A stretch of DNA of 64,000 nucleotides from Sisyra terminalis (taxonomy: Eukaryota; Arthropoda; Insecta; Neuroptera; Sisyridae), in NCBI GenBank assembly GCA_958496175.1, contig OY292277.1, positions 23,888,282 to 23,952,281 on the forward strand, in the 5' to 3' direction. The notes beneath the pieces were generated by a model. It had not been told where the DNA came from and did no database searches. It saw only the letters and a list, made by a program, of their open reading frames with translations. Within the stretch, counting starts at the first letter, position 1; each line of letters opens with the position of its first letter. This document shows positions 4,062-61,200 of this stretch, in pieces. A program made the translations under genes and the position numbers.

Positions 4062-7000
4062 CTAAAAATAAAACAAAATCAATTACTCGGAAAAATATGG
4101 TACAAGAAACTCGTTTACGGTATTTGAAGCGAAAACAACAAAGTATAAAAAATGATGTCACGGTGATAATGGAAATAGTTTGAGAACTTATGCAATCGCC
4201 ACCAACCCCTAGCGGGTTAGTTGTAAAATTAAATGAATATTCATAGTCAGCAAATTTGAGGGTAGATCAATATTCAACTAAGCTATATTCGTTAGACGGT
4301 CCACTGTTCTTTACATAATCACCATAAATGGAACACAAAAAATTTTGCTCTAACAGGTATAAAATGAACAAAAATGACATTGTTGTTATGTAATAAAAAG
4401 CTTAAAGTAAATAAATTTAATATTGAGATATTAGCCACGTACTTGGTCTTTGAGCATGTTGCGTGGCAGCCTTTTCCAAATTTGAATGTTGTTGAGCCAA
4501 TTGTTCGACAACTTCCTCCAAGCGCAACTTTTGCTCGCGTTCATGTTGTAACATTTTACATAACTTTGTTCCTTGCGTTTCTGCTACAGATAAATATTCA
4601 GAACAGGCCTGAAAAATACAAAATTTCAATAATATAGTAGAGTAATGACACATCCGGGTCTTACAGACCCTGTAATAAATAGGGAGTCGGAAAGAAATTG
4701 TTTTTTTTTTTTTTTAAATCCCCATTAATGGTTACCCCGAAGTAATATACTGTGTCGACGTCCACCTTAAGAGGGGTGAAAGCCTGTAAAGTGTGACAAT
4801 ATCGAACAATGGGGGAAGAAGTAAAAAATCCGAAAAATAGGGTATTTTTTACTCATGTGTCCTTATAAAAATATAGAGAAGAGTTTTGAATAATCTAAAT
4901 TTATAATTTATTATTAGTTTTAGCACGCCTGCAAATGCTATGAGGAACTTTGAATTTATTATAGTTCTGGCAGTTATTAGTCTGGAATATTAAAAATTAA
5001 AATCGAAAAATGGATACAATGTTGAGTTTATTTAAAATAATACACAGAAAAGTACTGATGATAAATTATAAATAATGATGGAAAAGAATGATGGGTTATA
5101 AGAGTAAACCAAGTTAAGATTTCACAAAAAAATTCACCACATGTTTGTATACTATGCACAGTATGCGCAGCGGTAAATTTAAGCCTAGGCCCGTGGGGCC
5201 CGAGCCTACGGCGGCACAACTTTAGGGGCAGTAAAATTTTCAAAACGCTAACATTTTAGAAGCGAAATAATGTACGGGTAATTCAAATTTAAAAATTGAT
5301 TTGAGCTAGTTTTGCTATGAATGTACGAAACACCTTAAATAAAATATGTAAAATATTTATTTTATCGAATTTACTTTTCAATTTATCTCATCATATATTT
5401 CAATTGTTTAACCACTAGTAATTAGAGGACTGTCATTTCGGGATTATTCAGACTTCAGAGCAATTTAAAGATCCTTATAATGGTAGTTTTTTAGGAACCA
5501 TGGAACATCTTTTACTAAATTCAATCCATTTTTGTCAGAGCATTTAAAGTCCGATGCAAATCATGGTAATTGCAATACGTCATAGTCATCTAAAACATTA
5601 CAGTATCCTGGCAATTTAGGAGAGATCTTAATAGATGAATATACTCACAAATATTATCTACTTAAAGATTATAAAATAGTAAAGATATTCGTTTCGCGCT
5701 AAATAAATGGAATACATTACATTCATGGAATCTTAGAGATGAGAATTCCAATGTTGACATTCCTTTGCGTATTTTTTTTAAGTCTAAACTCTAAACGACA
5801 AATTATCCAGTAGAAAAATATTTTTCCATTCTGAAACGGATAGACAGCTATTAACGTGCAAGTATTAGCCAAGATAGACTTGATACTTTGAATTTATTAA
5901 TTATTGAAGTTTAATTAGTGCAAAAAAACGATTACGATGATATAATCGATATTTTTGCGTAAATTAAAGCTAGGAAGAGGAGGTTAATATCTTAAGTAAA
6001 GTTAGAAAAAAGCTGTGAGTTATATTAAACTTTGAAAAAAATTATTGGAATTAAGAAGTTGTCTTTAAAAAATTATATGTAAATTCATAAAAAGTTTTGT
6101 AAAAACTAATAAAAATTAAATCATAATTTGAGTATTTGATTTCAAAATTACAAATTTTATCTTGATAGCCTACTTATTATGAAGCAAAATGGGCGGAATA
6201 TTGAATGGGGCCTAGGGCGGTTTCGGACTTAAATCCGCTACTGGATATGCGATATCGGGTTTTGGTCTATACTTCTCACTTTACCCAATGTATTTTTGAA
6301 ATATTAAATAGATATAAATTCACAATTTCTTAACAGAGTGTTTTTTCCAAAGGAACAATATTTTTTTTCAAACAATTGAGAAAAAATGGTACATTTACTG
6401 TTACCCAATAAGAATTATGCACACTTATTATAATTATATGGAATTAATTATATTGATTTTTTTAATTTGTACAGTTGTTTTACTAAAGCAGGGGTAGCCA
6501 AACAAGTTGGGCCGATTCACTTCAACAAACACCATAAAAATTCGTTGGCTTTCGTTAATGTTTTGAATTAAGTCTTTTATAAGTTCCCAGTTTGAAATTT
6601 AGTGCCAGTCCGGGCCTGTATTAAAGTTTTTTTTTAGTTTAGTTGGGATTTCCAGGATGCGGTTAATTTTGTCTCAATATTGCTGCCTTTAGGCTTATAG
6701 TGTTTCCTGGGTCCTTGTTTCACTTAGTAAATGTCGAGTAGCTGGACGAATCTCAGCAATTGGTGTACTATAGGTTTTCGATTATTTGAGTTCCAGGGTT
6801 TATTATCCGTGTACTAACGGTAGATACAATTTTGTAAATTAAAAAATGTTCTTATGTTCCCCCGAGAATTAATTGAGATAATTTTCGCAAATTCTCGTGT
6901 TTCTTTTTTCATTATCCTAAGAAAATATCTTGTAGATAAACGCTGATTATCAGCTTGATGATAAGCAATTTCTAAATTTTACTTAAATTTTTGTATGCTG

Positions 7001-10000: not shown

Positions 10001-13000
10001 AAGATTTTCGTTTTCTTACATAAAACTGAAGATTATGGCATTATCTTAACAAATCCAAAACAACTTCAAATAATAAATAAGGATGACATTAATAATTACA
10101 AAAATTTTGAAACCGCAGTAAGAAAAAATAACGAAGATAGAAACGGAAGTAGTTTTTCCTCTAATTTCTGGAAATAATCTAATTGTGAGTTAGGACAATA
10201 TGACTAAGGAGAGCAGAGCAGGCTTAGGTGTCTAGTTTTTCTTTAACATAAATTTTCTAACTGCCCAGACAAAAGTTCAGTTTTTCCCGGCCTTACGTAT
10301 AGCTTCTCGAAGCTATTATTATGAAATAAATTAAAATAACGATGTGGTTTTCATTTATCAGTATATTCAATTGAACTTATCATTCAACGTACATACTCTG
10401 TACATTAAATATGTATGTTTATTTACGATAATTTCTATATTTTTTCCGGTTTACAAACTAATCAAATATGAATAAAATAAAGAAAAAATTGTAGTTTTCT
10501 TCTAACATAGATAATGAAATTCTCTGACTTCGAAACAACATTAAAAGCTTCTAAACTTTCCAATAATTTTTAAATTATTTCAGACATGTTAAGAAATATA
10601 TAAAAATTAATATTAAATTCAAATAAATAATTAATCAATATGGAATATAAGCCTATTATGGATACCCAAGTTCCTGCTGCTTAAGTCCAAATTAGCATAA
10701 GAAGACTAAATGATCAAACCATTCCAAAAAGATATCCTATTTCAAGGATAGAAGATTTCAGATCAAATTTAGAATCAACAACAATATTTTCAAAATTAGA
10801 CTTAATTAAAGCATATTATAGGATTCCAATTGCCGAAGAACACAAACCAAAAACGGCAATCACTACTTATTATTTCGGCCTTTATGAGTTTAATGTAATG
10901 AGTTTTGGGCTTAGGAATGCTCCTTCAACATTTTAACGTTTTATATCGGAAGTATTAAGAGGATTACAAATTGTTTTCCCTAACATGGTATTTTATCGCA
11001 TATTAGTTTACAACAACAAAAAATGACGTTATATTTTTATTTTAATTTTGTTGAAGATTGAGAGATTTACCTAATTATTATATTATTCTGCAAATTTATT
11101 TGTAAATCATTGCTGTACGGTGTAGAAGAAGATTTTGTGCCTCTATACAGAAGATGTACCTACTTAATTTATTAAATTATCTTATCAAGTCTAAATAAAA
11201 TCTTATTCAATCAATTGAAATAAGTAATTGACAATATTTTATTTTCAAGGATAAAACTTCCAGACGACGTCTCGGATGTGATTGTTGAAATTTTTAAAAC
11301 TTTTATAAGGTAAGAACAAAGTAAAACCGCTAAACAAAATAGGTAAATACTAGCTCAAAGTTACAATATGAGAGATGTTGAAACATATTCATGATGAAAT
11401 GGTTTTTAAGAGTAATATTGAAGGAAAATTTGGAAATATTTTGTATTGAGGTAGATTTATATGAATGGTTAGTTAGTGAATGTTTAGAATTGAACTTACG
11501 TTAATCATTGCGTTACTGGCAATCCGAAATAAACTTGCACGTTCACTAATTTGTTTACTTTTCATTTTCACTTCCTCCAACTGTTCCAATTCTGTAAGTG
11601 CACGTTGCAAAGCAGCACCATGTTTTGCTAATGCCTCCGAACAAGTTTGCAAATCTTCAAGACGAGCACTCAATTCGCGGACGACGGCGTTGATATCTTC
11701 CCGTGGACTTTCCCCACTGGCTGCTACGTCCTCGTCTTCAGACTCCGTCGCTTGTCTAAATTATTTATCAAGACAAGTAAAAAAATCAATTAAACAACAC
11801 CAATAATCATAATTTAATTGATTAAATTAATAACGGCTGTAAGGAATTTATATATCCTATTCAGAAGGACAGATAACTTAATAGAGGCAATAAAACTTTA
11901 GATTCGAATGATTTTTTTTATTAATAGGTTGAAAAGTTGGAAAACTATATACAGCCAAGATATATTTCTCATTTAATTATGAAAAATTTATAAAAAAAAA
12001 ATGCAATCAAATAACACAGGCCTGCGATGGTAAAATTGTCTTAAATAAAATAACATATTTTTGTTGTAATTTTTGCCCTGATTATGGAAAAAATATTGAA
12101 AAAAGTTCATCACGTAAGATTTTGTTGCAACCCACAATTAAAAAGTATTTTTTTTGGCTAAAATCGGAGGCCCAAATCGAACCACTTTTTCTGTATCGAA
12201 AATGGTAGTACCGGACTTCTCACTACTACCGCTGGTGTCGTTTTATTTTCCGTTGGTAAGGGAAACAAACCGATTCAAAGTTTAAAAGTGAAGGCGAAAT
12301 AACACCAATCATTTCTGTTATCTCGCTTTCATTTATAAACTTCGTATAGGTTAATTTTTTTTACCAACGGAAGATAAAACGACGCCAGCTCTAGTAGTGA
12401 GAGGTCCGGTACTACCATTTTCGATACAGAAAAAGTGGTTTACTTCGGGCCCCTGGCTTCTTCCGAAAAAACTTATAGATATTACTCTTGTTGATAATTA
12501 TGTTAAATATAATATCTATGTTTTATTAAATTTAATATCACAAATTTGTCGTGTTACTTAACATATTTATTCCATGGAATTTAAGAATTTTTTTTTTAAA
12601 CTTGCGTTATTTGCTACTTATTCCTAATATATTTTCTCATTTTGTGAGAAAACCTTACGTGATGGAAGAAAATGGATTTCATATTTGAAATAAGCACAAA
12701 AAATACATTGAAATCACCAATTACAGTCAAGACAATTTTTAAAAAGTATTTTTTTGCAGGCCTGTATAATTTATCATTTTTAATACAAATACGATAAAAT
12801 TAATTCTTTATGATAGTTTTGTTTTTAAGTACCAAAAATGTTGTTCAATAACGACATTGAAATTAAATTAACACTTTTCGTTAAATTAAACTAAAACCTA
12901 AATTGACAAAATGCTAATAGATAAGCTAAATTTTCCTGTAAAACCAGGCAAATATTGAACATTATTTTCATGTACAATACAAACAAAAGAGGCTAACCAT

Positions 13001-16000
13001 TAAAGTTATTACCAGGGTATAACAGTTAAGAAGACTATAAAATTTGCTAATTACGATTTTAGCATAATGCAGTTAAAATCAGTTAAAATGCTAATAGCTA
13101 GTTTAAATCTAATTAGAATATATGTAATAGTTCATACTTTATAGGGTGGGTCTTCAAACCATTAAAACTGGAAATATCTGGGATTTTTTTTTAAATTAAA
13201 TACTATTAACACTTATTTTTTAAAAAATCTTGTTAAGAGATTGATGTATCTCATGTTCTTATTCCAAAAGCCGATTAAAGGAACCTTGATTCATGTACTA
13301 AGTGAAACAGGGAGGAGAAAGAAATAAAAACGGTTTGAATCATAAATGTAGTAGAATTCAATAGTCATCGAAAATAAAAAAAAAAAAACAATAACCACTA
13401 ATATAATAATTAGAAGAAAAATTAATTAAAAGAGAACAAATTTTAGAAGTGATATCTATAAAAATAAAACTGAAACCATCCAAATTAAAAATATTAAAAG
13501 AAATAATTAAAAATTTCGCTTCTATTGATAAAATGCACTAAAAAGGTAAAAAAAAATTATGAGCTGAATCTTAGTACTGATGGCACCATCGATATTAAGG
13601 CGATATTAGCAAATTAATGAGAACTGTAAGCTATTTAGTTGTGCATCAAAGCAAGGGATGCAATTTTGTTTACAATTTGGTAATATGGAACACCCCGCGT
13701 TTTGATGTATAACTAGATAGCTTACGATTCTCACTAATTGGCTAACATCGTTTTAATTTTTTACCATTTTAGTGCATTTTATCAATAGAAGTGAAGTTTT
13801 TAAAACCTTTTTTAAACATTTTTTTATTTTCTCCTTTTTAATTTTTCATTGTATTTTTAATATCAATTTTGTTAATCATGGTCTCAAATTTGAACTAACT
13901 GGTTGTTGTCATTAGTTTCAACTGTCTTTTCGATTTCATTCAATTGTCAATTTTTGTCAGTTGTGTAAGTGTTGACTGTGAGTAGTATTTCATGGGTAGC
14001 TACTAGCAAAAAGGAATAGTCTAATATATAAATTTAACACATAATACAACTTACATATGAGTTAATTTCAACTAAGGCAAAATTGAATAGTTCTGGAGAC
14101 TATCTGAAACTGGTTCTAATTTTTCTGTGTTAATTTCTACTAAGATGTATTTATAATAAGAATTTGGAAAGTTTTAATAAATTTTAAACTCATAACATTT
14201 TGGAAATGTTATTAATTCGGTAATTCTACTCAAGACTTGGGATGAATTCGCGGGGCGTAAAAATGGTAAAGATACCCTCGGTAACCCGCGGGTTGGCCAT
14301 CCCGATCTAGGGTCTCCCTGAAGCTTTAACTTTAGATTCGGCAAAAAATCAGTCAAGCTACAGATTTGCCAATAAAAACATAAGAATTTGTACAGGTACG
14401 GGTGAATTGTTTATAGTTAATTAAGAAGTAGATGTAGGGGTTGTTTCTATTACTACTATAGAATCTATTTTTAATTTTCGTTTTTTTTTCTTTTTAATTG
14501 AAATTTTGATAAATTTTTGCTGCGGTTGATATGCCTTCTATAGACCATGAATTTTTCATATGTTAATTATGTTACATTTGTCGTAATTTTTAAGATATTT
14601 TACTTAAAATTAGCAAACTTAAGGAATCTTTAACTTCGGTCGAAGACTTAAGTTAAAGCTGAACATTAAACATTAAATTAATTCACTTAGTTTTTAATAA
14701 AAATTCCCTGGTTCATTAATGAAATTTGATATTTCCAATTTTTGTAATCTGAGGACCACCCTGTAAAGAGAAAAATATCACACAATAATAGTCTTACATG
14801 TTTCAACTTTTAACGTTTCTTAATAGCACTTCCTAATATATACTAACTAACTTCAATATTGTACATCAAGGTATTAAATGTAATAACACTAAAAAAACAA
14901 AGTTAAAACTATAAAAACAAAATTATGCTATTAAAAGTTCAAAAATAAATCAAATTAAAACCTGTATAACGTTAAAACGATGGTATATTAAGTAAACTGA
15001 TTATCTTAAATTAAATCATTTATAATATAAAATTTCGATACCTATTTATATTTTCTACTTACATCGCTTTTACTTTGGCCAATTCCAGCTCCGTCACCCA
15101 CCAATTTCGATCGATTTCACTCGATGCACGTAAATGAAAAGTTTGAGTACCGCCATTGGATATTACGAACGTACAAGAATCCACAGTATAGATAAAAGCC
15201 CCTTGTAATGAAATTGTACCACGACACGTGTGCGTCATTTCAACTTTATTTCTGCAAAAAATAAATCCACGTTACAACGATTTCCAATAGTAAAAACAGC
15301 ATTTTTCACAAAACAACCAAAACCAAGCTCTGAATATTTGGTGACAAAAAAATTGAAAACGCTAAAAGTGCACATGAAGCATTTCAAAATTCTCAGTTTA
15401 ATTTTTCTTTCTTTGGAAGCTTAAAGCTTCCGTAAACAATGGAACTACGATGATGAAATGCGCAGGATCAAAAGAAAATTCTTTTAGTTTTTCTTTGTTA
15501 AATTGACAAATGCAATGCCCGCGAAAATAATGATAAACTTGATATTGCAAACAAATTATGAAGGTACAATTGTATATATCAAACATCGAAATATAAAATA
15601 GTGAAGCTTTAAAAAATCTATAAATTTGAATGAAGAAAGCATGTATGTTTCATGAACTTGACGAGTACATGAGGCATAAAGTAATGCTATAATTTTCAAT
15701 ACTATAAGTAACATTGAAGAATAATAAAATCATTATAAATTCAATTAATCAAACATGTTATAATGAAATAGTTCAAATCAAAGGGGTTAATTGTCCTAAA
15801 TGGAAAAATAAGATTGAAATTCATTCGTATTTGCACCGCCGCTGACCCTGACATTTAAAATTTGGAAAAAGGGTAATAAAGTAAAGAAAAAATGCTAAAA
15901 AACTTGTTATTCCAGTGCCTTATCATGGCTTTTTAAGAAATTAAAAAAAAATCACTGGTATCTATTTAAAAATTCAAAGAATTTTGATATTCAATGAATA

Positions 16001-19000
16001 TTAATTCAACGATTGTCATTGATTTGATAAAACCATACTAACTCGACTGTTATAAGTCAATGCTTTTACAAATAATATGTAAAATTCCTAAAAAAACATA
16101 ATGCAAAATATTTTTATAAATTAAAATAAATATATGACATTTCAAAGATTCTTATACAAAATTTCAAACCGAAACAATGTCAACACTCTTTCTGTGTTTT
16201 AAAAGTTTCAAAAGATTATAAAAATTATCATAAAAAGATAAAAGATAAAAATTGCAAACGATTAAACAAGTTAGACTTCCAAAAATAATCAACTTAGTAT
16301 TAGTTCTTCAATATATCAGTATTGTTTTAGAATTGCTCAAAATTTATTAGCTTAAGAAAGTAGTTGTTCAGTTCAACTTAAAAAAATCGATTAATCGAAA
16401 TTGTTATTTACTAAAATTTCATAAACACTATTACATAACGAACACAATAAAAATGATTAAGTTTATGGATTTTAATCGAATTTGTATGTTTCAAAATTCA
16501 ATATTCAAATGTTATTGATGAGTATTCAATATAATGTGAAAAAAACGATACTGGCGAATATTAGAGCTAAAATAGAAATAGAAATAGTTTAAAATATAAT
16601 AAACTATTGAAGCAAAACTATATTATGCAACTCTTATTGTATGGTATTTTTCAGGCACTCAGTTGTTTTTCTTTGTAACGAGAAATCAAGCGAAAAATCC
16701 TTTTAAAACCAATTTTAGTTGAGAATATTTTTTGAATTCTAAAACGTTAAATTTAATTAATACAAATTTTCAGAGGACTTGGATCAAAATAAACAGTTAA
16801 AACTTGATTTTTACTCGCAACGTTTCGGCCCCTTTATTGAGCCTTCTCCAGGCGTTCATAGACAATCGCCTTAACTTTGTCAACAATAATCCTTATTATG
16901 ATTCATTTTTATAGATACGGTACAGTTAATAAAAGTAATAATAAAAGCTTCCAGGAGACATAAAAATTCAATAAAAAATTAGTTAAAAATAATACTTTTT
17001 AAACCTAACCGCTCAGCATTGCTGAGTCTCTGTTAGTCTAGTCTCTGCTATGCTAAACGCTTAAGTTTAAAGAGTATAATGTTCAACTACTTTTTAATTA
17101 TTTTTTATTGAATTGTTATGTATCCTAGAAGTTTTTATTATTACTTTTATCAACTGTACCGTATATATAAAAATGAATCATAACAAGGATTATTGTCGAC
17201 AAAGTTAAGACCATTGTTTATGAACGCCTGAGGAAGGCTCAATAAAGGAGCCAAAACGTCGCGAGTATAAATCAAATTTTAACTGCTTATTTTGATCCTA
17301 GTCCTCTGAGAATTTGTATTAATCCGTTATCATCAAGGATCTGAAATTTTACCATAATGTTAAATTTAATCGAATATTTCTGCGGTTTAATTGAAAAGTT
17401 AGAGCAAGAAGACTTTTTACGACGATATTCGACCAAATATAAGACGAAATAAAAATGTAGATCTTAAAAATTTTCAAGATATATAATTATAAGAGTTAGC
17501 AACTCTGAAAAAATTTTTTATTAAAGCTGATTTTTAGATATAGTCATTCTATCGGCCTTTCAATCAACATAAGGGTAGATAGGCTGCCGGTACAAGTTAC
17601 AGTTATTTATAGGCATTTTATTTGTACATTTAATAGAATAAATTTAAAAAAATTATCACAAGAAAGTCTTCTTTTTTTTTTCTTGACATAGTTGCAGCTT
17701 TATGCAGCTTTTATTGCTTTCGACACCCATATTTATCTATAGATTAAAAGAGGCGTTTAAAGAAACTATGTTACAGTAAACTAAGATCAGAATAGTAGCA
17801 TATGACAAATTGAATATTGAAATACTTTGAAAAAATATTTTTTTCTTATAAAACTGCATCTGACACATTGTTAACAACAATGAAAACGTCTGGCATTCAT
17901 ACATTTATGATTGTAAAATCAAATTTATTTCAATAAAAAAAAAACTTTCTTATAAACATTTTAAAGTTTATTTATTTACCTGTACAAATAAAATGCGTAT
18001 AAATAAATGCAATTTATACCGGCAGCCTAACTACCCTTAAGCTGATCGAAAGACCGATGAGTGGCTATATCCAAAAATCAGCTTTTTTAAAAATCAGCAT
18101 TATTCACGTTCTTATCCATGGTTTTTTAGATTTTAAATACTTGCTGTTGTTATTTAATCTTCGTACAGCGTTTCGCTACTTTCGTAGCTTCAACAAGTAC
18201 TCAATTACAAAACATCAATTGTTAAATTCATATATAAGTATAATAATTTCGGTATTAATACAATTAATATTAATTGTAATTGAGTACCTGATGAAGCTAC
18301 GAAAGTAGCGAAACGTTGTACGAAGATTAAATACAAACATCAAGCATTTAGTATCCAATAAAAGAGATTCATTTCCTGTTATATTTCTTAAAAATCTTTT
18401 TTTTTTCAATGTCGCTAGCTCTCGGACTATATGTACCTAATTTTTGTTGAAACCTCATACACTTATGTACCCTGAAATATTTTTTCATACTGTAGTTACA
18501 TGTGCCACTCTTTTTCGTAGTTTCTCTACAATCAACACTACATCATTGTACAAATCCATAGGATACCTAAGCGATTCATGGAAACTGGAAATTTTCTTTC
18601 AAATTTCACTTGTAGTGCTAATATAGTTTCCTCTTTAAATATCTAGTATGAACAAAATAAAATTTTATGAACTCTCTCTTTCTATCAAAAATTGAATTTT
18701 GAATAACTGTAGTTAAAGTGAAGAAATTTAGTGTTTAAGTAATCTATTGTCATCGTTTTTGTAAGAACTTTCATAAGTTCACCAGACCAATATAAGATCT
18801 CAACGAAATCGATATCGTACGATATCATTACTCTGGCCCTAGTGTTTCCTAATACGTGGTACGCGTACCCCGAAACATAGTTCTCCCGCTTTTTATTCTT
18901 TCCCGAATACATATGAAAAACGTCATTAGAAATGGATTAGTAAGGTTGGATGGCGAGATATTTTTTTTAAAGTATGCAAATTTTTTTTTTTAAATTTCTG

Positions 19001-22000
19001 AAATCTATACTAAAAACAAACCTATTACTTTACTCTAGGATATCATATTTCATACCCCCCCCCAACGTGTGACATAATTTATGGATGGTCCCTAAAAATA
19101 AAAGTTTAATAAAATATTCAAGTTTAAACTAAAATTGATTAATTGAGTGGTTGAGATTTCCTGTTTAAACAAGATTAACATTAATCGAGTTTATGAAGTT
19201 GTGAAAATGAGCTTTTATCTGTGTATATTTTTGTAATATTTTAAAATTATCTAATATTAATAAAATTACCTTTTTATTTTTACAAAAGCTAAGAAGATAC
19301 ATTCAAAAAGCTGAAACGCATAGAATAAGATGAAGGTAAACTTAATATTTATGCAATTACTTATAATGATCCAAATGAAAATGAAGTACAAACGGAAAGT
19401 GAAAAACATATCGGGGGGCATTACTTACTCATTACAAGGGTGCTGACGACGTCTGCGGATTGACAGTTTGGGCCCCCCGCTATGTTCCGCCCTATATACA
19501 TAGTAACAACACCTCAGAAAAGATTGGAAAAGAGAAAAGTTCAAAAAAATACAAGCCCAAACGTAAAACGAAAAAAAGACGGATTTAGGTCTCAAGTTGC
19601 AATCCGTTTAAAAGTTTAATAATGTTCAAGCAAATATTATAAAAATCTAAAAAGAAAATGGAGAAATAGAACTCTTAATTTTCAACTCGATCAAGCAAAA
19701 AATTAATAGCGTAAAAATGTAGCAATTTCTAACACTATGTTGGAAATTCTAAGCATACCTAATTATAAAAAAAGAAATTATCTAAATTGTTATTTTTATA
19801 CTCTAAAATAAGGATACCATAAATCATGGAAATTTTAATTACCAAATAAACAGTATTAAGTATTGTGTGTTATTTGGGGACACCGTTTTCAACAATTAAT
19901 TAAAGAAGACTACAGTAAGATGGATAGAAAATACATTAAGTATTATGCAATAACTGTGCAACGTTTCGTATGGAATTTAAACTTCCTTAAGCATCTTCAA
20001 TGGAAATTACTTTCGTTTACATTTGAGAGGCAAATTATAGAGAGAAACGACAAATTATAAATATTTTAGCACTATACAAATTTTCAATATGAAAAATTCA
20101 AAGATAAACGGAGTGAAAATTTAAAAAGTTTAAGTACTAGGCTATGATTTAAGTGTTTAAATGATTATTTTGTCATTTAGTAATAGTTTCGTTACATTAT
20201 TTTATCGTATGTTGAGAATTATTTCCTTACAGCACCTGAGAAAGTTGGAATTCTAGACGAAACGTTAACAAAGAGTTTCGTATTTTTTTTGTCTTTCAAG
20301 GGGGATGCTATATGATCTTCATAGTTTAAAATAAACATTTTATATTCGCCCAGTTGGTGCACAGATCTAAAATGAGCTCTGGAAAAATTGGAATAGACTT
20401 TTTTAATTTAAAAATAACCCTAAATGACCTATTTTAAAAAATCGTAGGAACAAACGTACTTAATTCTTGGCACATCAAATCATTTTAGGTAGGAATGTAG
20501 AAAATATATCGAAAGATAGATATTTTTGAGCAATATTCAATGTTTCGATATATCGATATTAATTTCTTAGCTTTACTATGAAGTATAAGTTATAATAATA
20601 ATCTTAACAACATTCTCAATCTATTTGATTTAAAAAATAAGAGGTTATAGGGCTTAGAAAAATTGGCTCAAGTATACTTTAGCACACCCACAATCTGACA
20701 ACGTTGCATTTTCGACTTTGTTTTTAATTCAATTCGCGATTAAATCGGTTTATAATGAAAATTTAGCCACAAAAGAGAGAATTATACCATATTAGAATTG
20801 AATAAACAAAAATATCGAGAATTAAATTTAAAAAAAAGTCGAAAATGCAACGTTGCCGGATTGTGGGTGTGCTAAAATACACTTGAGCCGAAAAATTTCA
20901 TAAGATGAAATAGTTACTCGTGACTTTTCGACTATTTATTTACTTAGTCTTCCTCAGGCATTCGTAATTTCTTATCTTCACATACAATATTGACTTTGCT
21001 AGATAAGAAACTACAAGAACCTAAGGAAGACTAAATCAATAGTCGAAACGTCGCGAATAATTATTTCATCTTAATGCATTGTTTGAGATCCTATAATCTC
21101 TTATTTTTTAAATTAATTAGCCTTTTGAAGCCTAGATTTAAATAACTAGCAGTATAATAATATTTTCCTTTAAATCGCACCGAAAATTGATTTGTTGATT
21201 TGAATAATAGATATTAATTCAATAATATTGCAATATATCGAAATATATTCAGATCTTTTAACACTTCTTACATCCTTTATTCTACATTTGTATCAAAAAT
21301 ATATGATTATAATTTAAACTGAAAAAAATCCAAAATGCAAGTTTCCAGAAAATCAATTTTCCCATTATAATTAAGTTAATTGTCAGTTCAAATAATTGGC
21401 TACTCTTATAAAAGTCAAACATCTAGCAGTGTTATTTACCATATCTGATTTCATGAATTTAAAATTCTATTTGTCAATTTTTTATGAGTAAAAAAGCATT
21501 AAGAATTAATAATTCATTCAATTAAAAGTTTCTACTTCGATTATTTTCCATATTTCAATTAATCGCTAATTTTTAGGAGTGAATTCAAATGAAAAATCAC
21601 AGCAGGAGAATGGTGGAATAAATTCAATTAGTTTTTGTAAAGTTAGATTTATGAGTAGATATTTTTGTGTTTAATAAAATTAAAAATAAATGTAATAACA
21701 AATTTTTAATTCAGATAATATTTTTATCAAAGCATTGAGGACTGCTTTTCTATTGAATCAAATATGAGTGGTATATGTATTAAATTCGCTTCGGTATATA
21801 ATGAGCATAGTATAACATTTAATTTCCATCAAAAATATTTTAAATTAAAAAAAGGACAATAAAATTTGACAGATGGTTTTAAATATAATTGTTCAGTAAT
21901 ATTTTAATTGTTCTTTTCTATAGTTAATTTATAATTGTTTGTATTCTCTTTTTTAAGTTTTTTTTTATTTTTGTGCATCACGTTTTTTTAGTTCACAGTT

Positions 22001-25000
22001 GAATTGTGATATTAAGTATTATATTAGTACCTGAAGAAGTTGGGAAACCGATGTTGTTAAAAAAAATTTAAAAAAAATCGAATATCAAAAACGCAAACAG
22101 AATTCTAAAAAGGATAAAAGTATTTTTATTTCTAAATATTAAACATGTATTATTTTTCAAAGTCGATGAAACGATGAAATCATAAGTTAAATTTTTTTTT
22201 GTAGGTATATTCTCTATCATCATTTAACTTATGGAGTTCCTTAGATAATTTATTACTGACCCCTAGTCCTTACGGCTTCCACACATTGAGGCGGTATATT
22301 CCTAGTATAAATGCCAGTATATTGGTACAGGTAATAACCTAGAATAAACGTCGACTATCTGTGGGTCGCGAACTTTCGAAACACATGCGGCTTAGTAAAA
22401 TCATACCTGTGCTTCTTGAGTAATATAATAGCACATATTAAAAAATTAATTACATTATTTTCTCTAATACATATTACAGATGTATAATATTTGACAATTA
22501 AATAGGACCGAATCACAGTTCTTTAGATATTATTATATTTGAAGTTTATTAGAATCTTCATACTTCTTTCGTTGGTTTCCCAACTTCTTCCTTAGATTCA
22601 TCATCCTTACATGTTAAATAATTGAGTACTAGAAGAAGTGGGAAAACCAACAAAACGTAGTACAAAGATTTAAATAAACATTATAACATCCTAAGAACCG
22701 CGATTCCTTTTTATACTACCGATGTATGTTTCTTTAAAAAAATAAATTATCACATCGGGGAAAAATGGCTCTTAACTGTATAGAAAGGTTGCCAAACATA
22801 CATATAATTGTTATTTTAACCACATATTGGTCAAAATTCTAGGAACTAAACTATAACTTCAAACTTAATGCGGCGGTCATTATTCTACAAATATGCCGCC
22901 AAAAACTGTATGATGTGAACTGAAAAAACCGACAACTCCCAGATTTTGGATCAATGTTCCAATAATTTCAACTCATCAAGGTCTTCTTATATATACACCT
23001 AATTCTGTTTTTACATGATTTCATTCGATTTAGCACGATTAAAAAAAGGCTATTTGATTTAAATTTTAAAAAAAATATTTATATTAACCGTACATTTTTA
23101 GAAATTTAGTTAAGAAAATTACCCTTTCTAGTATATTTTCAAAGCAGGTCAAGTATATATTTTATTCTTCTGTTTAGTTTCAATAATAAAGTTGGGCTTC
23201 AGAATAGGTACTAACGTATTCTTCTAACATATATGAGATGTTGACTAGGTAATATAAAACAAGTGTGTGTAGGTACTTATGAACGCAGAATTTCCACCAA
23301 AATTTTCCAAAATAATTGCCGATGGTGGGTACCGTCCAGATTAGGTCTTTAATGCGGGCGGAACTGGTCTCTCTTGAAAAAAAAAATGCCAAGCTACTAT
23401 GCTACATATGTAGCAAAATCTCGTATGTATCAAAAAAGAGAGATAGTGTTTTTAAGGGGTTACATAGGTTTAAATAGGGAAAAAACCGCCTATTTTTAAC
23501 ATTTTTTTTCCGTATAAAAAGTGAAATATTAAAATTAAACTTTTCATTATCTTGAACATACATGCTTGACAAATAATTTTTGAAATTTTCGTAGAAAAAT
23601 ATTTAAACTCCGCCATAGCGACGGTATTTCCGGTGACCCGTTGGAGAAAAGTGTCCGCGATGAAAGCAAAACTCATGACAGGTTCATTCGAAGTGAAAAA
23701 ATAATAATACGTATTTTGTATTTTAGTTAAGACCATAAACTAGAACTTGAACGAAGGAAAAGAAAAAAAAGTACCTAAAAATGGATTTTTGGTAAACTGG
23801 TTTTACAAAAAAAAAAAAACAATTTCGGTGAAATTTGCTCTACATTCTTTTCTTTTTTTAAATAGTTATAATTGATAAAACAATCTCCGTCCAAATCCTT
23901 GTGAATTGTATCCCGAAAACCAGAGTAAAATTTCATCAAAATCGGTTGAGTAGTTCCCAAAAAATCTTGACAACCGACTTTGAAAACACAGTTTTGAGGT
24001 TACGCGACAATAGACAATAGAGTAGCTGCAACGATATACCGGCGACGCGCTGAACTTTTTAAGGCTGTACTTCCAAAACTATTAATCGGATCAACTTGAA
24101 AACTTACTAAAATATTCTAAAGATGCATAAATTCATAAAACAATAAAAAATCAATTTTTTGAAGCCGTGAAACCCATGTAACCTCTTAAGGTAGCAAAGG
24201 GATCCAGCCGCATTTTATTGCAATGATTCAGGATTTTATCGCATTTGTTCTAATCGCATATTTAAGCCTCGATCAAAGGGGTTGACTTTAATTAATTATC
24301 GATTTATTGGATGACGAACGAAAAGGCATGAGTAACAACTGCTAATTTGGTTTAATAAATGTTTTGTCCCAGAAGTTAGAAGATATATGCATGAAAAACG
24401 TCAGGTCTTCTAAGTTCTTCTGATTGTTGACAACGGAACAACGGACATCCAGATTTGAAGCTCGAAAATATACAAGTTTTGTTCTTGCCATTAAATACGA
24501 TATCCTGATTCAATCACTTGACCAGAATATGGAAGAATTTAGAATTAATCTCCTTTTTTATACGGTTTTGCCTGGAACGTATCAACCATGTAAAACAGAA
24601 TTAGGTGTACTATTGCTATACATACTGGTCATTCATTGGTTCAATGTGTGGATGAGTCAATATAGTTGGGTAGCGCAGGATTATTACTACCACTTCTATA
24701 GTACCTTCACGATTAATTATTAATGAAAATAACCTAATTTTCTAATGTTTAACTTACATCTTTCTAACAATCCTAATGTTCAACTTACCTCATTTTAATA
24801 GCATCTTTTGGTAAAGTTGAGTAACTAGTAAAGTTTTTTTTTTTGGTAAACGTTAACGATCTGAATTACAATACATCTAAACATGTATAATTTTCTAAGG
24901 AAGATTTTAGCGGAGAAAAATACAATACATTTATTCTTCTTTAAGCAAAAATATAAAATAATTCTAATGCATTGTATAGGAGGTATAACAGAAAATATTG

Positions 25001-37260: not shown

Positions 37261-37663
37261 GTAAAAATAAACGCTTCAGTAATATTTCCGCGAAATATTG
37301 CATATGATTATTGTTTGCAGAACGTATCGGTTGACACATGAAATGTCACGGGATAGTGATTCGTTAATTCACGATGGCTCAATTACGGATTTATCAACAG
37401 CCAGCAGTTGCTGTACACATCCAAAAGTGCGAGAAAATTGGCGAATGGTTCTTGCAGCAGTTACGCTTTTAGTGATTGGGGTTGGTTTGTTGGCAACAGG
37501 AGCAATGGCGTTAGCTGATCCTGAAGCAGGGTTGCAAGGAGCCGTATTTTTATTAGCAGGCCTTATATGCTTCGTACCTGGCGCTTATCACGTAGTTTTT
37601 ATTTACATGGCTGCCCGAGGACACCGAGGATACAGTTTTCATCAATTACCCTTGTTTACTTAA
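37115..37663 (+). CDS. Tmem134: Transmembrane protein 134 (two exons, complete)
   Basis: A small membrane protein of the TMEM134/TMEM230 (DUF872) family; its molecular role is not well defined. Joining 37115-37260 and 37321-37663 gives 162 aa. An N-terminal FSIDDAFE (15-22) is the TMEM134 hallmark, and CCTHPKVREN (79-88) precedes the membrane part. Membrane segments are predicted at about 91-113 and 122-143. The C-terminus has PGAYHVVFIY and ARGHRGYSF, as in vertebrate TMEM134. The N-terminal half is polar and probably cytosolic. The intron is only 60 bp. AATAAA at 37942 and 37978 may serve as poly(A) signals. The start is the first ATG in frame with the FSIDDAFE block. Confidence 0.93.
37321..37663 (+). 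CDS. Tmem134: Tmem134 coding exon 2 (both membrane segments, stop)
   Basis: The acceptor is TTGTTTGCAG. It encodes TYRLTHEMSRDSDS, the CC motif, two hydrophobic segments and the conserved C-terminus ending LPLFT. Confidence 0.94.
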
Positions 37664-44707: not shown

Positions 44708-54961
<10,254 letters not shown>

Positions 54962-55430: not shown

Positions 55431-56611
55431 CTAATGACATCTAGACGAAAATGTTTGTATTTTAATTTGAGAGGATAATTTAAAAAATTATCAAAAGTAT
55501 TACAAACTTATTAAATGTAAAAGAAAAACCAAAGAAAAAATCTCCCATTTTCAATTTAATAAATAGTATCGATAATATCATTTATCTTCATAGAGTTTCC
55601 ATATGCAATCTTCAGTTTAGAAACTTTTTGATAAATCGAACCAAATGAATCATGTCTTAGTAATTAAATTTGTTTTTAACTTATAATTTGTATAGTTTTA
55701 TATCGATAATTCCTAATTTAGTTTAAGAATGTATACCCCTGGAGCCAAAAGAAAATTTATTTCCTGCTAGTACAATCAGTAAAATGACATTTAATAAGTC
55801 ATTCATATTATGTCGCGGATGTTTAAAGAATGATTGTCGATGAATTAATAGTTAAAAAACTATAAGTCTAGCAAGTAATTTTCTCCCTCCAGAAGGTGTA
55901 AAGAATTGAAAGTATTAGAAATATAAAAACCTCCTATATTTTTGAAATATGAGTAATAAATGTATACTGTTTTTCATAGCGATCGGATTAAATGAATTGC
56001 TTTCATGCTCACATAACTAAAATTTTAGTAGTGGAACATATCTTTTAGAATAACAGGAAGACAGGATTTAAAAGAGATCAAAGAACACTCCTAATTTCCG
56101 TTGACTAACCTTTCTGTTGTTTATATATAAGTTTGGTCTAGCTCCTCTTGAATTCTTCGTAGGGCTTTAGATTGCTAAAGAACTAATTATCGGTACTATC
56201 TCAACTCCAATCAACCTTTGAGTTGGGTCTTATTGTATCGATGTTTTACGGTGCGTGATAGGAATTGGTTTTTGATATTTGACGTTCGAAAACTGTTTAA
56301 AACTTTCAACTCTTCCCTTTTTCCAACACATACTAATTGAAAAAATCACGTTAAAATAGAAAAAAAAATAAACCATCATGGCCGAGAAAAAGATCTTTAT
56401 AAAAAAAATTGATATTATTTAATAGTTTTAACGATACGGCATCGAAACCGCTGGAAAACCTTTCAAAATAGCAGTCATAAATGTCGATAAACGATTATTT
56501 TGATAGGTTTTCCTACAGAGTATTTACCGATTGACCCACTATATTTTACTAAAAACTAGCATTTTTAGACGGAATAAACAGCTATTTTAGAAATTTGAAA
56601 GTAAAGATATT

Positions 56612-56834
56612 GGCTCAAGTCCTTTTTCGAACAGTCAAATCTGACAACGTTGCATTTTTGACTTTGTTTTTCATTCTTTTCGTGAATAAATAGTTCCATA
56701 ATGAAAATTTAGTCATAAAAGAGAAAAGTTTACCATACTAGATTTGAATTAACAAGAAAATAGCGAAAAATATAAAAAACAAATTCGAAAATGCAACGTT
56801 GTCAGATTTGATTGTTTTAAAACGGACTTGAGGC
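56612..56834. mobile_element. GGCTCAAGT-family MITE, copy 4
   Basis: Starts GGCTCAAGTCCTTTTTCGAA and ends AAAACGGACTTGAGGC, with GACAACGTTGCATTTTTGAC and its inverse inside. The target duplication is no longer clear. Confidence 0.85.
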
Positions 56835-58031
56835 AAAAAATCTATCATCTTCTACTGCCAATATAATGATGTTGTAAATATTTCAAGAAAAAAACAATAA
56901 TTTTATGACTACCAAAACAATTTTATAAGGAAGACATAGCAAAAATTTTTCTCAAAAAGTAAATTGAAATAGGGAAAATTTTAAATAAAAGAGATTATAA
57001 ATGTTAAAACCAGCTCTATATAATACTTCAAAAAAATATAAATACATAAGTTTGGCTAAGTAAGTAAAACAAAATTATTTTCAAAAAATCATTTAGTAGA
57101 CAATCCTTATGGAATGTTTTTCTTTTCGATGCATAAATTAATTTATATCTAATTTTTTCATGTAAGTACGTAATCTCAATTATGTCTTCACACTTAAGTA
57201 AAATATTAAAGAGTATTCGCTTCAATCGATATTAAATTGAAGTATTATCCATCAAATAAAATAATTTTAAAATTTTTGCAACTATTCGATTAAAATAAAA
57301 GACAAAACTAATGTAATTAGTGATTCTTTTTGTGCGATAATGGTTTAATAGAAAAATTGTAATTGAAATTATTTTTAAATCATTTCATAAAATAAATGCA
57401 TTAAGCTATGACCCTAGTTTTTGATTATACAAATTGAATGTTAATATATAAAAAAGAGCGAATACTCTTTCAAGTCCTTACGCCACTCATTTAACTTTGT
57501 TAATTATTATTATTTCTTAATCTGGCATATTATTTTGAGTGGGAATGATCCTAGAAAAATCCTTAACACAATGCATCATCCAAAAATAATCGTGGATTTT
57601 TCAAAAATAACCAAATTTAAATGGGCGGCGTTCGGTCTTTGTAAGTAAAATAAACTAATTTTTTAAAATACTGAATTGCCAATTAAGTAGTACAAACTTT
57701 ATGCAAAATTGCACATTCAGATCAAAATAAAAAAAAAAAACACTAATCATTAGAATAAAAAGGCACATTTAGCAATCATTTTACTATATCTATGTCTATC
57801 AAAAATTGGAATTTAGGTAAATAAATGTAATAATCAAGTAATAAACGCCATAATGGAATAAATAAATTAAATCATTGAAAATTATTGACTAAAACATAAA
57901 CTAAAAATAACTAGTAGGCCGTTTGAGTTGAACTAAATCAACTGTTTACAATAAAACTATCAGAATTAGTTATTTTTGTTATTTTAGTTAATTAAGTACC
58001 AGTTACCCTGATGATAAAATAATCTTCGTCT

Positions 58032-58236: not shown

Positions 58237-61200
58237 CTAAAAAGAAGAACATAGAATAGCAATAAACACAAAATTATAATCGAAATTTTTAAAATTACCT
58301 CTATTCCTAACAAATTGTACGGTATACTTTTAAATTCAATTTTTTCAAAAGTTCCGTCAATGGAAATAATAGGTTTTCTTGGATCTTTTCCAGCACGCAG
58401 CCCTTTTGGGTATCCGCGAATAGTTGTATTAAGGTATAACATTTTTGGCCCCTTTTCAATAACAGCAAATCTAAACAAAAAGTAATACTTCAAAATATTT
58501 TAATTTCATTTTAGTCCTATTAAATTTTGCCAGTTTGCACCTTGCAAAATTATTCTTATGACGACTTCTTTGCCTTTTAAATATCTAAAATAATATTTTT
58601 ATTAGATGGTAATGTTCAATGTATTTCTTTGTGGAATGTTATTACATTAAAAGATAAAGAAGGCACAAAAATATTAATATTTTATGATGAAAACGTAGAT
58701 TTCAGTAAACTACAGAAGATATGAAAATATTTCAAAAGTTTTTTTAAATAACTTTTTAGGGAGCATCCATTAATTGCGTGAGGAGGAGGGAGTGTTTAAC
58801 AAAGTCTTACACAATCTCACGTGGGGGAAGAGGATGGTCTCGGCAAATATCACGTATTTTTTAAAAATTGTTTATTTTTTCTTTTAATTAATCTAAGGTA
58901 ATCGAAGTACAGATAAACTCATTTACAGTGCAAATACGTATTTTGAAAAATCTCACCTGATATTAGGGGACGGAGGATCGAGCAAAACCTCACGAAATCT
59001 TACCAAGGAGGGAGGGCGAGTCGAAAAATAGCTAAAATTTTCTCACGCGATTAATGAATGCTCCCTTAATGAGTTTGAAAAATCCTCAATTTATTCATTA
59101 GTGTCCGACCAACCCTAGTTTTATAACTAAATTCAAATTTCAAATTAGCTGTTATTAGCGAAAATAGATAAAATCCACTTTTTAATACAATTCATTTCGG
59201 TATTTAAAAAAATTTATAATTCACAGAAATTGTTATTCCACCGATCATTACCAAAAGTTAAACGAAAGTTTACGAACATAGTATCGGTTTCGGTTATAGT
59301 TTTCGATACTTTTTAGCAGTTTAATGCCGAAGTCGAAAGATCGGTCAGACACTACTTTTAATATTATATAATGAAATAATTTACGTAGGTAATAATTGAA
59401 CTATAGCAGCTTCCTCAGTGCCCCAATACAAATGAGTTTCACGCCATTCATTTGGGGATGCTATACAAAAATGATTTCCATTTTCAGCACGTAAAATGAC
59501 TAAAGTGGGTCCTCTATAGGCAAGAACATGGTGTAAGAAACGGTTGACGCCATTTCCATGCGTATCTGAATTATACAAAAGCACCCAGTGGGAAGGCACA
59601 TTAGAGACTAGTTTCATCAAAAAATTTTGTATCGAAATTCCCATTTCAAGACCGCCATTAGAACTAGATGGCATATTTGGTATATTTTGTGGTCGTGAAT
59701 ATAACGGTGGAAGGGTAGCAGCTAAAAGCCACGCTTGAGACACAGGCATTAAACGATCACTTTTAACAGAACCTGAAAATAAAAAAAAGTTATATTTGTC
59801 TGATTTGGGTATATTTTTATCTACCTTGGGGAAAAGGTGGTGGTTTGTCAAGCACAGGTGTTGCAAGTTCAATTCCAGCGACTGCTGTCGGACCTTCTGT
59901 TTCCGTGTTTCGGTAAGCTGTTGTTAAGCAATGCACTGCGAAACGATGAAGAGGATGAATCAAGCGAGGACAATGCACTTCGAGCCAATGAGTCACGAAT
60001 TGTTTAGAAAGCGATTGTTTGGCATGAAAACATGACTCTATCACAGCATGTAACGTTCTGTGTATCTAATAAAGTTTTAAAGATGTTTTAATAAGTGCAC
60101 TGACAAGAGAACACGCAATAATTAAACATGCGATACTTAAACATATACGGTTAATCACGGGATATTAAAAAATTAACTAACTAGAAACCTATTCATTTAA
60201 ACAATACGACACATATTGGAATCTCACATATGTGGATCGAAAAGCTGGAAACCGGTGTATTTTTCACCGAAACTTTAAATGATTAAGGGTTTAAGTGTCG
60301 TATGATTAAGTGTCTGTCCATATTTAAGTATCGTATGTTTAATTGTTGCGCTTATTCTTATGTCGGGTACATTGATATGTATATATGGATAGACCGTGTA
60401 TATAGCGCCAAATAGAAATAAGAAAAATCAAATGAGGCTTACGAAGCGCCGTCTACAGAGGCACAGTTTGTATGGTAACTAAAAACAATCGCGGCTAGTA
60501 AGTGCCGACGAGCACCAGTCTACACAAATTACGGTTTTAAGTAGGCACTTGTATTTCATTTGCTTCGATTGTTTCAGTTGCCCACACTAAAAAAGACTTT
60601 TCTATACAGTAATCCCTCCAACTTGCGCGATAGTTCCGTTTTCCAAAAACAGCGCATAATACAAAACCGCGCAATGTGAGCCCTATTTTGTAAGAAAATG
60701 GAGAGAGGGGGGTTAGACTCCAAATATTAGTTTTCAAAAAAAAAAAAATGTATAAAAACAAAAATCAACATTGTACATATCACACCTGCCGCAGAATAGA
60801 GGTACTCAAAAATTGCAAGTTTTGAATTAGCAACGGTTTATGAAGAAACCGCCTATTTTGTACGTAGCAGTACGCCCAGTGAGAGAGATTATTGCACATA
60901 GAAGTCTCTCTTCCAAGCGCTTCCAACACAAGCGCTGTCGCATTTTGCTTAGTTCACTCCAAATTTGTGCCTACGTAGACGGCGCTAGTAATTGCTTCTA
61001 GTGCAGTTTGTCGTTTACTGCGACGTGCGCTATCCATTTATACAAATCAATGGTCGGGTAAGATTTTAATTAACTCCTTTACGTTTACCTCTTCCTCACT
61101 TTCATCTTTCTGATTGCATTAAATCAGTATTTAAATCTTAATTAGGAAAAAAATATAATATCCGTAGTAAGTAAATTACATATTTACCAAAATACAAGTT

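Follow-up and report, generated by a model that had tools for sequence, protein, structure and literature searches.

What kind of mobile DNA leaves hammerhead-ribozyme-like motifs in mirror-image pairs? This question is raised by a 64,000-nucleotide (nt) stretch of the Sisyra terminalis genome (contig OY292277.1, positions 23,888,282 to 23,952,281; hereafter the window), in which a cluster of foldback elements carries such motifs. The initial annotation, made from the letters alone, had placed the cluster in intron 1 of Osbp, linked its motifs to those known from Penelope-like elements (PLEs) and considered a separate non-autonomous foldback family. The hammerhead observation is confirmed in the window. 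On the strength of sequence comparisons, we interpret the elements, with a probability of about 0.9, as old, coding-less insertions of endonuclease-type PLEs, in which two 5′-truncated ends of the PLE terminal repeat (pLTR) would stand head to head.

Hammerhead motifs in the foldbacks of the window

The window, which has 28% GC, was searched over its whole length with a covariance model, R1, and 11 hammerhead-like motifs were obtained at E<1e-4, all of them in 16.8–22.7 kb. R1 was built from ten of those 11 motifs, and their high scores therefore follow by construction. The next-best matches have E=0.053 (22216–22254) and E=0.085 (4800–4849), the latter being the best outside 16.8–22.7 kb. A mechanical scan, which provides a test independent of R1, was run with at most one core mismatch and a 5-bp stem II; it gave four matches in the window, whereas 60 dinucleotide-preserving shuffles gave none. 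With three mismatches allowed, five matches were found against a shuffle mean of 0.08 (maximum 2), and with four mismatches, again five against a mean of 0.67 (maximum 3). Ten of the 11 motifs form five outward-facing inverted pairs and the remaining one is single; in both arms of a foldback the 5′ end of the motif lies towards the centre, so that the motifs read outward. These results show that the foldbacks with one hammerhead-like core per arm, on opposite strands, are real.

The core runs in the order CUGANGA-A-stem II-GAA-ACGU-H. The core elements named in the initial annotation are all present, but the window cores hold one extra A between CUGANGA and stem II that the earlier order lacked. 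The CUGANGA/GAAA core is exact in motif C+ and carries one change each in A−, A+ and E+. In the intact arms, stem III has shrunk to a loopless palindromic ACGU. Stem I is paired in 60% of cells, with two of its four pairs changed on both sides, as read in decayed arms. The division of the window foldbacks into two sub-families is upheld.

Stem II was examined for covariation across the ten arms. It is paired in 92% of cells, and both partners have changed in four of its five pairs. None of 500 shuffles attained the observed covariation score (0.625), paired percentage (77.8) or count of both-side-changed cells (23), and slid controls all fell below the observed covariation values. The covarying stem II described earlier thus stands in so far as the stem is paired and changes in step across foldbacks, whereas two of the five covariation measures lie within the shuffle range. 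The covariation comes from five foldbacks and is supporting rather than decisive, because the arms of one foldback are mutual copies and the structure was read from the same sequences.

Elements A, C, D and E were recovered by an inverted-repeat scan and element F by local pairwise alignment (Table 1). The arms of element A span 16756–16991 and 17088–17323 in the scan (89%); in pairwise alignment the element is nearly palindromic over its full length, with arms of ~271 and ~281 nt. A genomic copy in L022 aligns with it over 16754–17358 at 79.6%, and L012 contains one complete element A arm together with just the final 56 bp of the second arm, ending in the same tail. In element C the scanned arms are 18122–18210 and 18274–18362 (88%), and the candidate duplication is 13 bp with one mismatch, a match reached by 6 of 300 random window pairs; CCATGGAT, near its left end, is common to the tailed arms of L006 and L012. 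Element E has further inner arms at 20937–20977/21001–21041, and its left arm is split by a separate element resembling a miniature inverted-repeat transposable element (MITE) at ~20652–20900, an inserted repeat also present in L016/L017. It is because this MITE-like element sits in the left arm that the foldback reaches 20621–21120. In element F, the right arm retains four of five stem II pairs. No convincing target-site duplication and no one-sided tail were seen in D, E or F.

Further candidates in the window were rejected. An inverted pair of weak R1 matches in a foldback at 31.1–31.6 kb (E=3.4 and 9.8) was dropped since inspection revealed no GAAAC half, and foldback B, at 17.5–18.1 kb, showed no hammerhead core by eye and no R1 match at E<=10. 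In Rfam, no family, hammerheads included, reached its gathering score in the window. A permissive Rfam search of 16.0–23.5 kb returned no hammerhead family; it gave plant-type microRNA matches, which are due to the hairpins, and weak RAGATH-12 matches. The Rfam hammerhead search of the whole genome gave no match, and neither did 14 control genomes, so that it is uninformative; minimum-energy dimer folding of the motif, which yielded long duplexes only, is likewise uninformative.

Genomic copies, coding relatives and the insertion signature

The genome assembly (376.6 Mb, 11 contigs) was then searched for the core. A strict core pattern, CTGANGAAGN{12,17}CGAAACGT, has 4,076 + 4,187 = 8,263 exact matches, and its reversed control has 0. 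The C+ core pattern has 47 matches, C+ itself among them, an A-type pattern has 340 and an exact 30-mer of another family has 1,301. Orientation was assessed among the 100 listed places of each pattern (47 for the C family), which are the first by coordinate and no random sample. For the strict core, neighbours within 1 kb make up 26 pairs, of which 23 are head to head (−+), two are +−, one is −− and none is ++; 46 of the 100 places belong to −+ pairs within 1 kb, with partners whose core is damaged counted as unpaired because only exact cores are seen. Within 2 kb, the −+ orientation is found in 20 of 20 pairs of the 1,301-copy family, 14 of 15 of the A family and 2 of 2 of the C family. The initial annotation had named a lack of further copies as an outcome that would speak against it; copies in inverted pairs are instead numerous. 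Along contig C1, members of the 1,301-copy family crowd the first 20 Mb and thin out at ~20–45 Mb, again among its 100 listed places.

Coding PLEs are present in the same genome. A generic PLE reverse transcriptase (RT) seed retrieved PLE RTs, and one of these, from the beetle Cylas formicarius, was used as the genome query. It gave 150 scored matches among 879 candidates, 19 of the 150 lying in open frames of at least 800 residues. The RVT_1 domain was found in three loci, L049, L063 and L070, and the mechanical scan detected a hammerhead in 9 of 20 fetched PLE loci. The open frame of L049 is 822 residues long, 816 of which were tested and contain RVT_1; a hammerhead lies across its start codon, and a second copy follows the open reading frame (ORF) in direct orientation. 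The 839-residue family (L063), missed by the scan, has by eye a hammerhead with the palindromic stem III AUACGUAU; L070, a third PLE type, has by eye one with a palindromic ACGCGU stem III. The extra base before stem II also occurs in the three coding PLE types read. In L048 and L058 a truncated ORF is preceded by an inverted pLTR; L048 also shows a duplication of 14 bp and a tail of 23 nt. At L068 (G000:C1:32190500–32197100), two PLEs of the 839-residue family stand head to head in a 6.3-kb palindrome of 99.3% identity, which suggests recent activity. By eye, the C-terminal parts of L049 and L063 resemble a GIY-YIG domain, and in L019 a fragment (728–875) matching the C terminus of the 839-residue PLE (72% over 36 residues) lies no more than 0.6 kb from a hammerhead foldback. 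L049, L063, L070, L048, L058 and L068 thus show that hammerheads occur in the PLEs of this genome and that these PLEs insert in head-to-head orientation.

The ends of the foldbacks were examined for the marks of insertion. In a first set of 30 loci (L002–L031), six were removed because the pair to which each belonged was already represented; 14 of the 24 kept have an inverted arm by the threshold used. An exact direct repeat of at least 10 bp was found at the ends of 9 of these 14 foldbacks, compared with 5.5% in mismatched pairings. Of the 17 foldbacks in a second set, six were repeated and eleven new, five of the eleven from the window; this set added three with such a repeat (L035, L048 and element A of the window; mismatched pairings, 3.7%). 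In total, 12 of 25 unique foldbacks have an exact duplication of 10–14 bp, where chance alone would give about one. Each of the 12 has one arm that ends no more than 7 nt from the duplication and another that is longer by 23–35 nt; two equal ends occur in none. Were each arm free to choose its end, the expected frequency of this outcome would be no higher than about 1 in 4,000 (0.5 raised to the 12th power). Element A, with a 12-bp duplication and a 35-nt tail, follows this pattern, as does L002 with a repeat of 9 bp; L028, one of the 12, has a weak, T-rich 10-bp repeat. Head-to-head repeats, one tailed end and a 10–14-bp duplication are the signature of PLEs and are also found in the coding L048. 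The Penelope link is therefore upheld, and the separate hammerhead-bearing foldback family is unsupported as stated. The window copies themselves are decayed relics without recognisable function.

One locus has a different layout. In L033 (2592–4557), head-to-head arms (96.5%) surround ~1.6 kb without PLE protein similarity, and another listed pair of the L033 family has a similar spacing (1,775 versus 1,799 nt). The interior is possibly captured DNA or part of a longer family.

Gene context and other features of the window

A PH-domain exon at 15065–15328 (−) scored 28.1 bits against a cut-off of 25.1 when the stretch was tested alone, and 20.6 bits, below the cut-off, in the whole frame. Its best solved relatives are OSBP-related protein 11 (E=0.0016) and collagen IV alpha-3-binding protein (E=0.0037), which is in line with the Osbp label and partly supports it. 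Pfam found no oxysterol-binding domain in 1–6.1 kb (minus strand only), 6.1–16.0, 16.0–23.5 and 23.5–33.4 kb or in the rest, searched as single ORFs. The placement in Osbp intron 1 thus has a PH-domain exon in its favour and lacks an oxysterol-binding domain in the parts scanned.

The MITE-like element inside element E belongs to a separate foldback family, with members at 20652–20900, 1131–1364, 56610–56836 and 61800–61993; the family's ends resemble GGCTCAAGT and its inner part TGACAACGTTGCATTTTC, and a near copy (93%) is found in the overlapping loci L016/L017. A palindrome at 12149–12471, with 161-nt arms (81%) and 1 nt between them, has only weak R1 matches. The WD40 protein at 44962–46137 (−) points to an insect host: the names given among its 120 best listed coronin matches, of 2,544, are those of insects, and beetles rank among the best. 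An RT fragment at ~10727–10990 (+; RVT_1, E=5.2e-12) is unmatched by the PLE proteins used and is probably the remnant of a long interspersed nuclear element.

Table 1. Foldback elements, hammerhead-like motifs and genes of the window
Feature	Position	Strand	Remarks
Left copy of the 12-bp target-site duplication GTTAAATTTAAT, element A	16746–16757		Exact match to 17359–17370; 0 of 300 random window pairs reach this length
Element A, head-to-head PLE terminal-repeat arms	16758–17358		Inverted arms 89%; right arm with additional 35-nt tail
Motif A−	16809–16861	−	R1, 53.0 bits
Motif A+	17218–17270	+	R1, 55.3 bits
Right copy of element A duplication	17359–17370		Exact match to 16746–16757
Element C, head-to-head arms, ends tentative	18096–18383		Arms 88%; candidate duplication 18083–18095/18384–18396
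Motif C−	18157–18206	−	R1, 53.4 bits
Motif C+	18278–18327	+	R1, 59.5 bits; sole core without mismatch
Element D, degenerate inverted pair	19950–20276		Arms 19960–19987/20239–20266, 28 nt, 82%, weak in repeat scan
Motif D−	19950–20000	−	R1, 41.8 bits
Motif D+	20226–20276	+	R1, 32.7 bits
Element E, inverted pair	20621–21120		Outer arms 20621–20651/21090–21120 at 90%; inner arms 20901–20942/21032–21073
Motif E−	20912–20967	−	R1, 43.9 bits
Motif E+	21011–21062	+	R1, 48.5 bits
Single decayed half-motif	22021–22065	+	R1, 26.2 bits, E=5.1e-5; outside training set
Motif F−, damaged core	22554–22602	−	R1, 36.1 bits
Motif F+	22620–22669	+	R1, 53.2 bits
TMEM230/134 gene	37283–37660	+	
WD40 protein matching coronins	44962–46137	−	
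TLDc-domain protein	59384–59923	−	

Known systems, rival explanations and a possible route of insertion

Minimal hammerhead variants of PLEs were reportedly described by Cervera and de la Pena in 2014 and, as HH-vars, by Lunse et al. in 2017. Minimal PLE hammerheads without helix III are already known, as is the action as dimers of short-helix-III hammerheads in newts and axolotl (PMC6155905, PMC7229834). The motifs described here share with the minimal PLE hammerheads (PMC6155905) the core, a short stem I, a stem II of 4–5 bp, the missing helix III and the location in PLE terminal repeats; they differ in that many copies lie in coding-less inverted pairs, and may differ in the extra base that precedes stem II; their activity is predicted. 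The Penelope elements of Adineta vaga have duplications of 8–10 bp and inverted head-to-head pLTRs, one of which may carry a tail of 31 bp (PMC3846280). Head-to-head arms, a tail on one arm, short duplications and variable truncation are thus common to both systems, whereas here most of the insertions read consist of pLTRs alone, motifs number in the thousands, the tail is on one arm in 12 of 12 and the duplications measure 10–14 bp. PAc, a Poseidon PLE of Anolis carolinensis, provides the biochemistry: its purified protein cuts and extends both strands, and its RNA has two internal start sites for RT, which delimit the optional tail (PMC11167929). Top and bottom strands used the same start sites in vitro; ribozyme mutants left insertion unchanged, cleavage needed the protein, and among the RNA reads none terminated at the cut site (PMC11167929). 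Like PAc, the PLEs of this genome have a hammerhead over the ORF start (L049) and AT-rich targets, and they would have two RT start sites bounding the tail. By contrast, PAc is known as tandem copies, with no foldback insertions described in the main text (PMC11167929), and here the two insertion ends differ. The literature consulted held no recognised account of coding-less, hammerhead-bearing, head-to-head PLE foldbacks in an insect; the two most relevant papers lay outside its coverage, and we make no claim of absence.

A number of observations speak against reading the window elements as PLE insertions, or against parts of that reading. Pfam found no RT, endonuclease or other domain in the six frames of 16.0–23.5 kb, and searches with five PLE proteins gave no match in the window at E<=1e-3. 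The elements thus contain no coding region, as the initial annotation had noted, and, lacking a PLE reverse transcriptase, the window copies can be no more than non-autonomous derivatives of PLEs. No coding parent was found for family A or family C/F, and the scan shows no hammerhead in 11 of the 20 PLE loci. The GIY-YIG model scores 16.1 bits in L063 against a cut-off of 22.6, with none listed for L049 and L070, and a GIY-YIG search of the genome gave one match, outside any PLE. By its sequence, that single match is presumably SLX1-like. Among the insertions, 10 of the 24 loci kept have no inverted arm by the threshold used, although two of the ten, L023 and L024, form one pair 1.8 kb apart; 13 of 25 foldbacks lack an exact 10-bp duplication, and within the window only element A has one. 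The candidate duplication of element C sits 26 and 25 nt beyond the aligned arms, so that, being equally far from both, it leaves no one-sided tail. Of the covariation measures, the number of pairs changed on both sides (6) was reached by 271 of 500 shuffles and that of further pair types (14) by 245 of 500. Finally, the PAc results on ribozyme mutants, the need for protein and the lack of RNA ends at the cut site argue against a required role of cleavage.

Other origins were weighed against the same data. A MITE-like DNA transposon family of the foldback type, which had captured a PLE hammerhead and was moved by a transposase, would account for long, near-symmetric terminal inverted repeats without coding sequence, for the TTAA-like letters that bound element A and for the company of unrelated foldbacks, which are common in the window (40 inverted pairs of at least 45 nt). 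The fixed duplication length and symmetric ends of such transposons were not found, however: duplications vary between 10 and 14 bp, and in all 12 clear foldbacks one arm is longer, by a tail of 23–35 nt. Moreover, arms can be unequal to the point of lacking the hammerhead (the left arm of L006; the right arm of L012, which is the last 56 bp only), and the signature is common to the coding PLE L048, all of which makes this origin very unlikely. An origin as retrozyme-type elements is still more improbable. These non-autonomous retroelements bear canonical type I hammerheads and use circular RNA to spread. Animal and plant retrozymes are, like the elements here, short, non-coding, hammerhead-bearing repeats; yet the animal ones are direct tandem arrays of ~300-bp repeats with classical type I hammerheads and circular RNA (PMC7229834). 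Here, by contrast, 25 of the 26 listed pairs of neighbours within 1 kb are inverted (0 ++, 1 −−), stem III is lost and no Rfam hammerhead reaches its gathering score in the window. Chance similarity arising from AT-rich palindromes might be suspected in a window of 28% GC that is rich in foldbacks, but with 0 of 60 shuffles matching at one mismatch and 0 reversed against 8,263 forward genome matches we give it next to no weight.

The remaining alternative concerns the mechanism alone and leaves the elements PLE insertions: the second arm may come from self-priming (snap-back) of the first complementary DNA (cDNA) rather than from a second priming on the other strand, as is proposed for Adineta Penelope (PMC3846280). 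The arms of one insertion are more alike than those of other insertions, since all 13 pairings, drawn from eight insertions, have a positive excess divergence (<0.01 in three); loops are as short as 8–10 nt (L016, L019, L020 and L030), and the candidate ends of element C are equally long. The likeness of arms fits self-priming and a common source locus alike, however, since it is equally expected if both templates came from one locus. Snap-back should copy the tail into both arms, whereas exactly one arm is tailed in the 12 foldbacks with a clear duplication, and purified PLE protein extends both strands (PMC11167929). The single tail therefore favours two separate starts, and of the two mechanisms two-strand priming is the more likely, self-priming being an unlikely but serious contender.

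Taken together, the one-sided tails and the dimer-type stem III suggest a two-template, two-strand priming of PLE insertion. The hammerhead, whose activity is predicted, would cut tandem PLE transcripts of the source RNA into units, and would do so best when two ribozymes share stem III. The PLE protein would cut both strands of an AT-rich site, each DNA end would serve as the primer for a copy of PLE RNA, begun at the inner start site for one end and at the outer for the other, and the two incomplete cDNAs would be joined at their 5′-truncated ends. The ordered use of the two start sites we can only infer, because in PAc the sites are alike on both strands in vitro.

PLE insertion is poorly known, and the retention of a weak, dimer-type hammerhead is unexplained. 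One conjecture, which we consider distinctly doubtful, is that the degenerate PLE hammerhead is mainly a template-pairing device: its loopless, self-complementary stem III would join two RNAs, a dimeric protein would carry the pair to one target, and each RNA would be copied from one DNA end, with an inner start on one and an outer start on the other. If true, template pairing would account by a single mechanism for head-to-head insertion, the dimer-type ribozyme and the occurrence of one long and one short tail, and thousands of coding-less foldbacks would be a normal by-product of PLE mobility. The meaning for the window itself is modest, its elements being relics in an intron-like region. 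The genome, by contrast, is a large natural experiment, with 8,263 cores, several families, coding PLEs and duplications and tails that can be read base by base, and its one-tailed head-to-head structure leads to concrete, testable predictions on two-strand priming.

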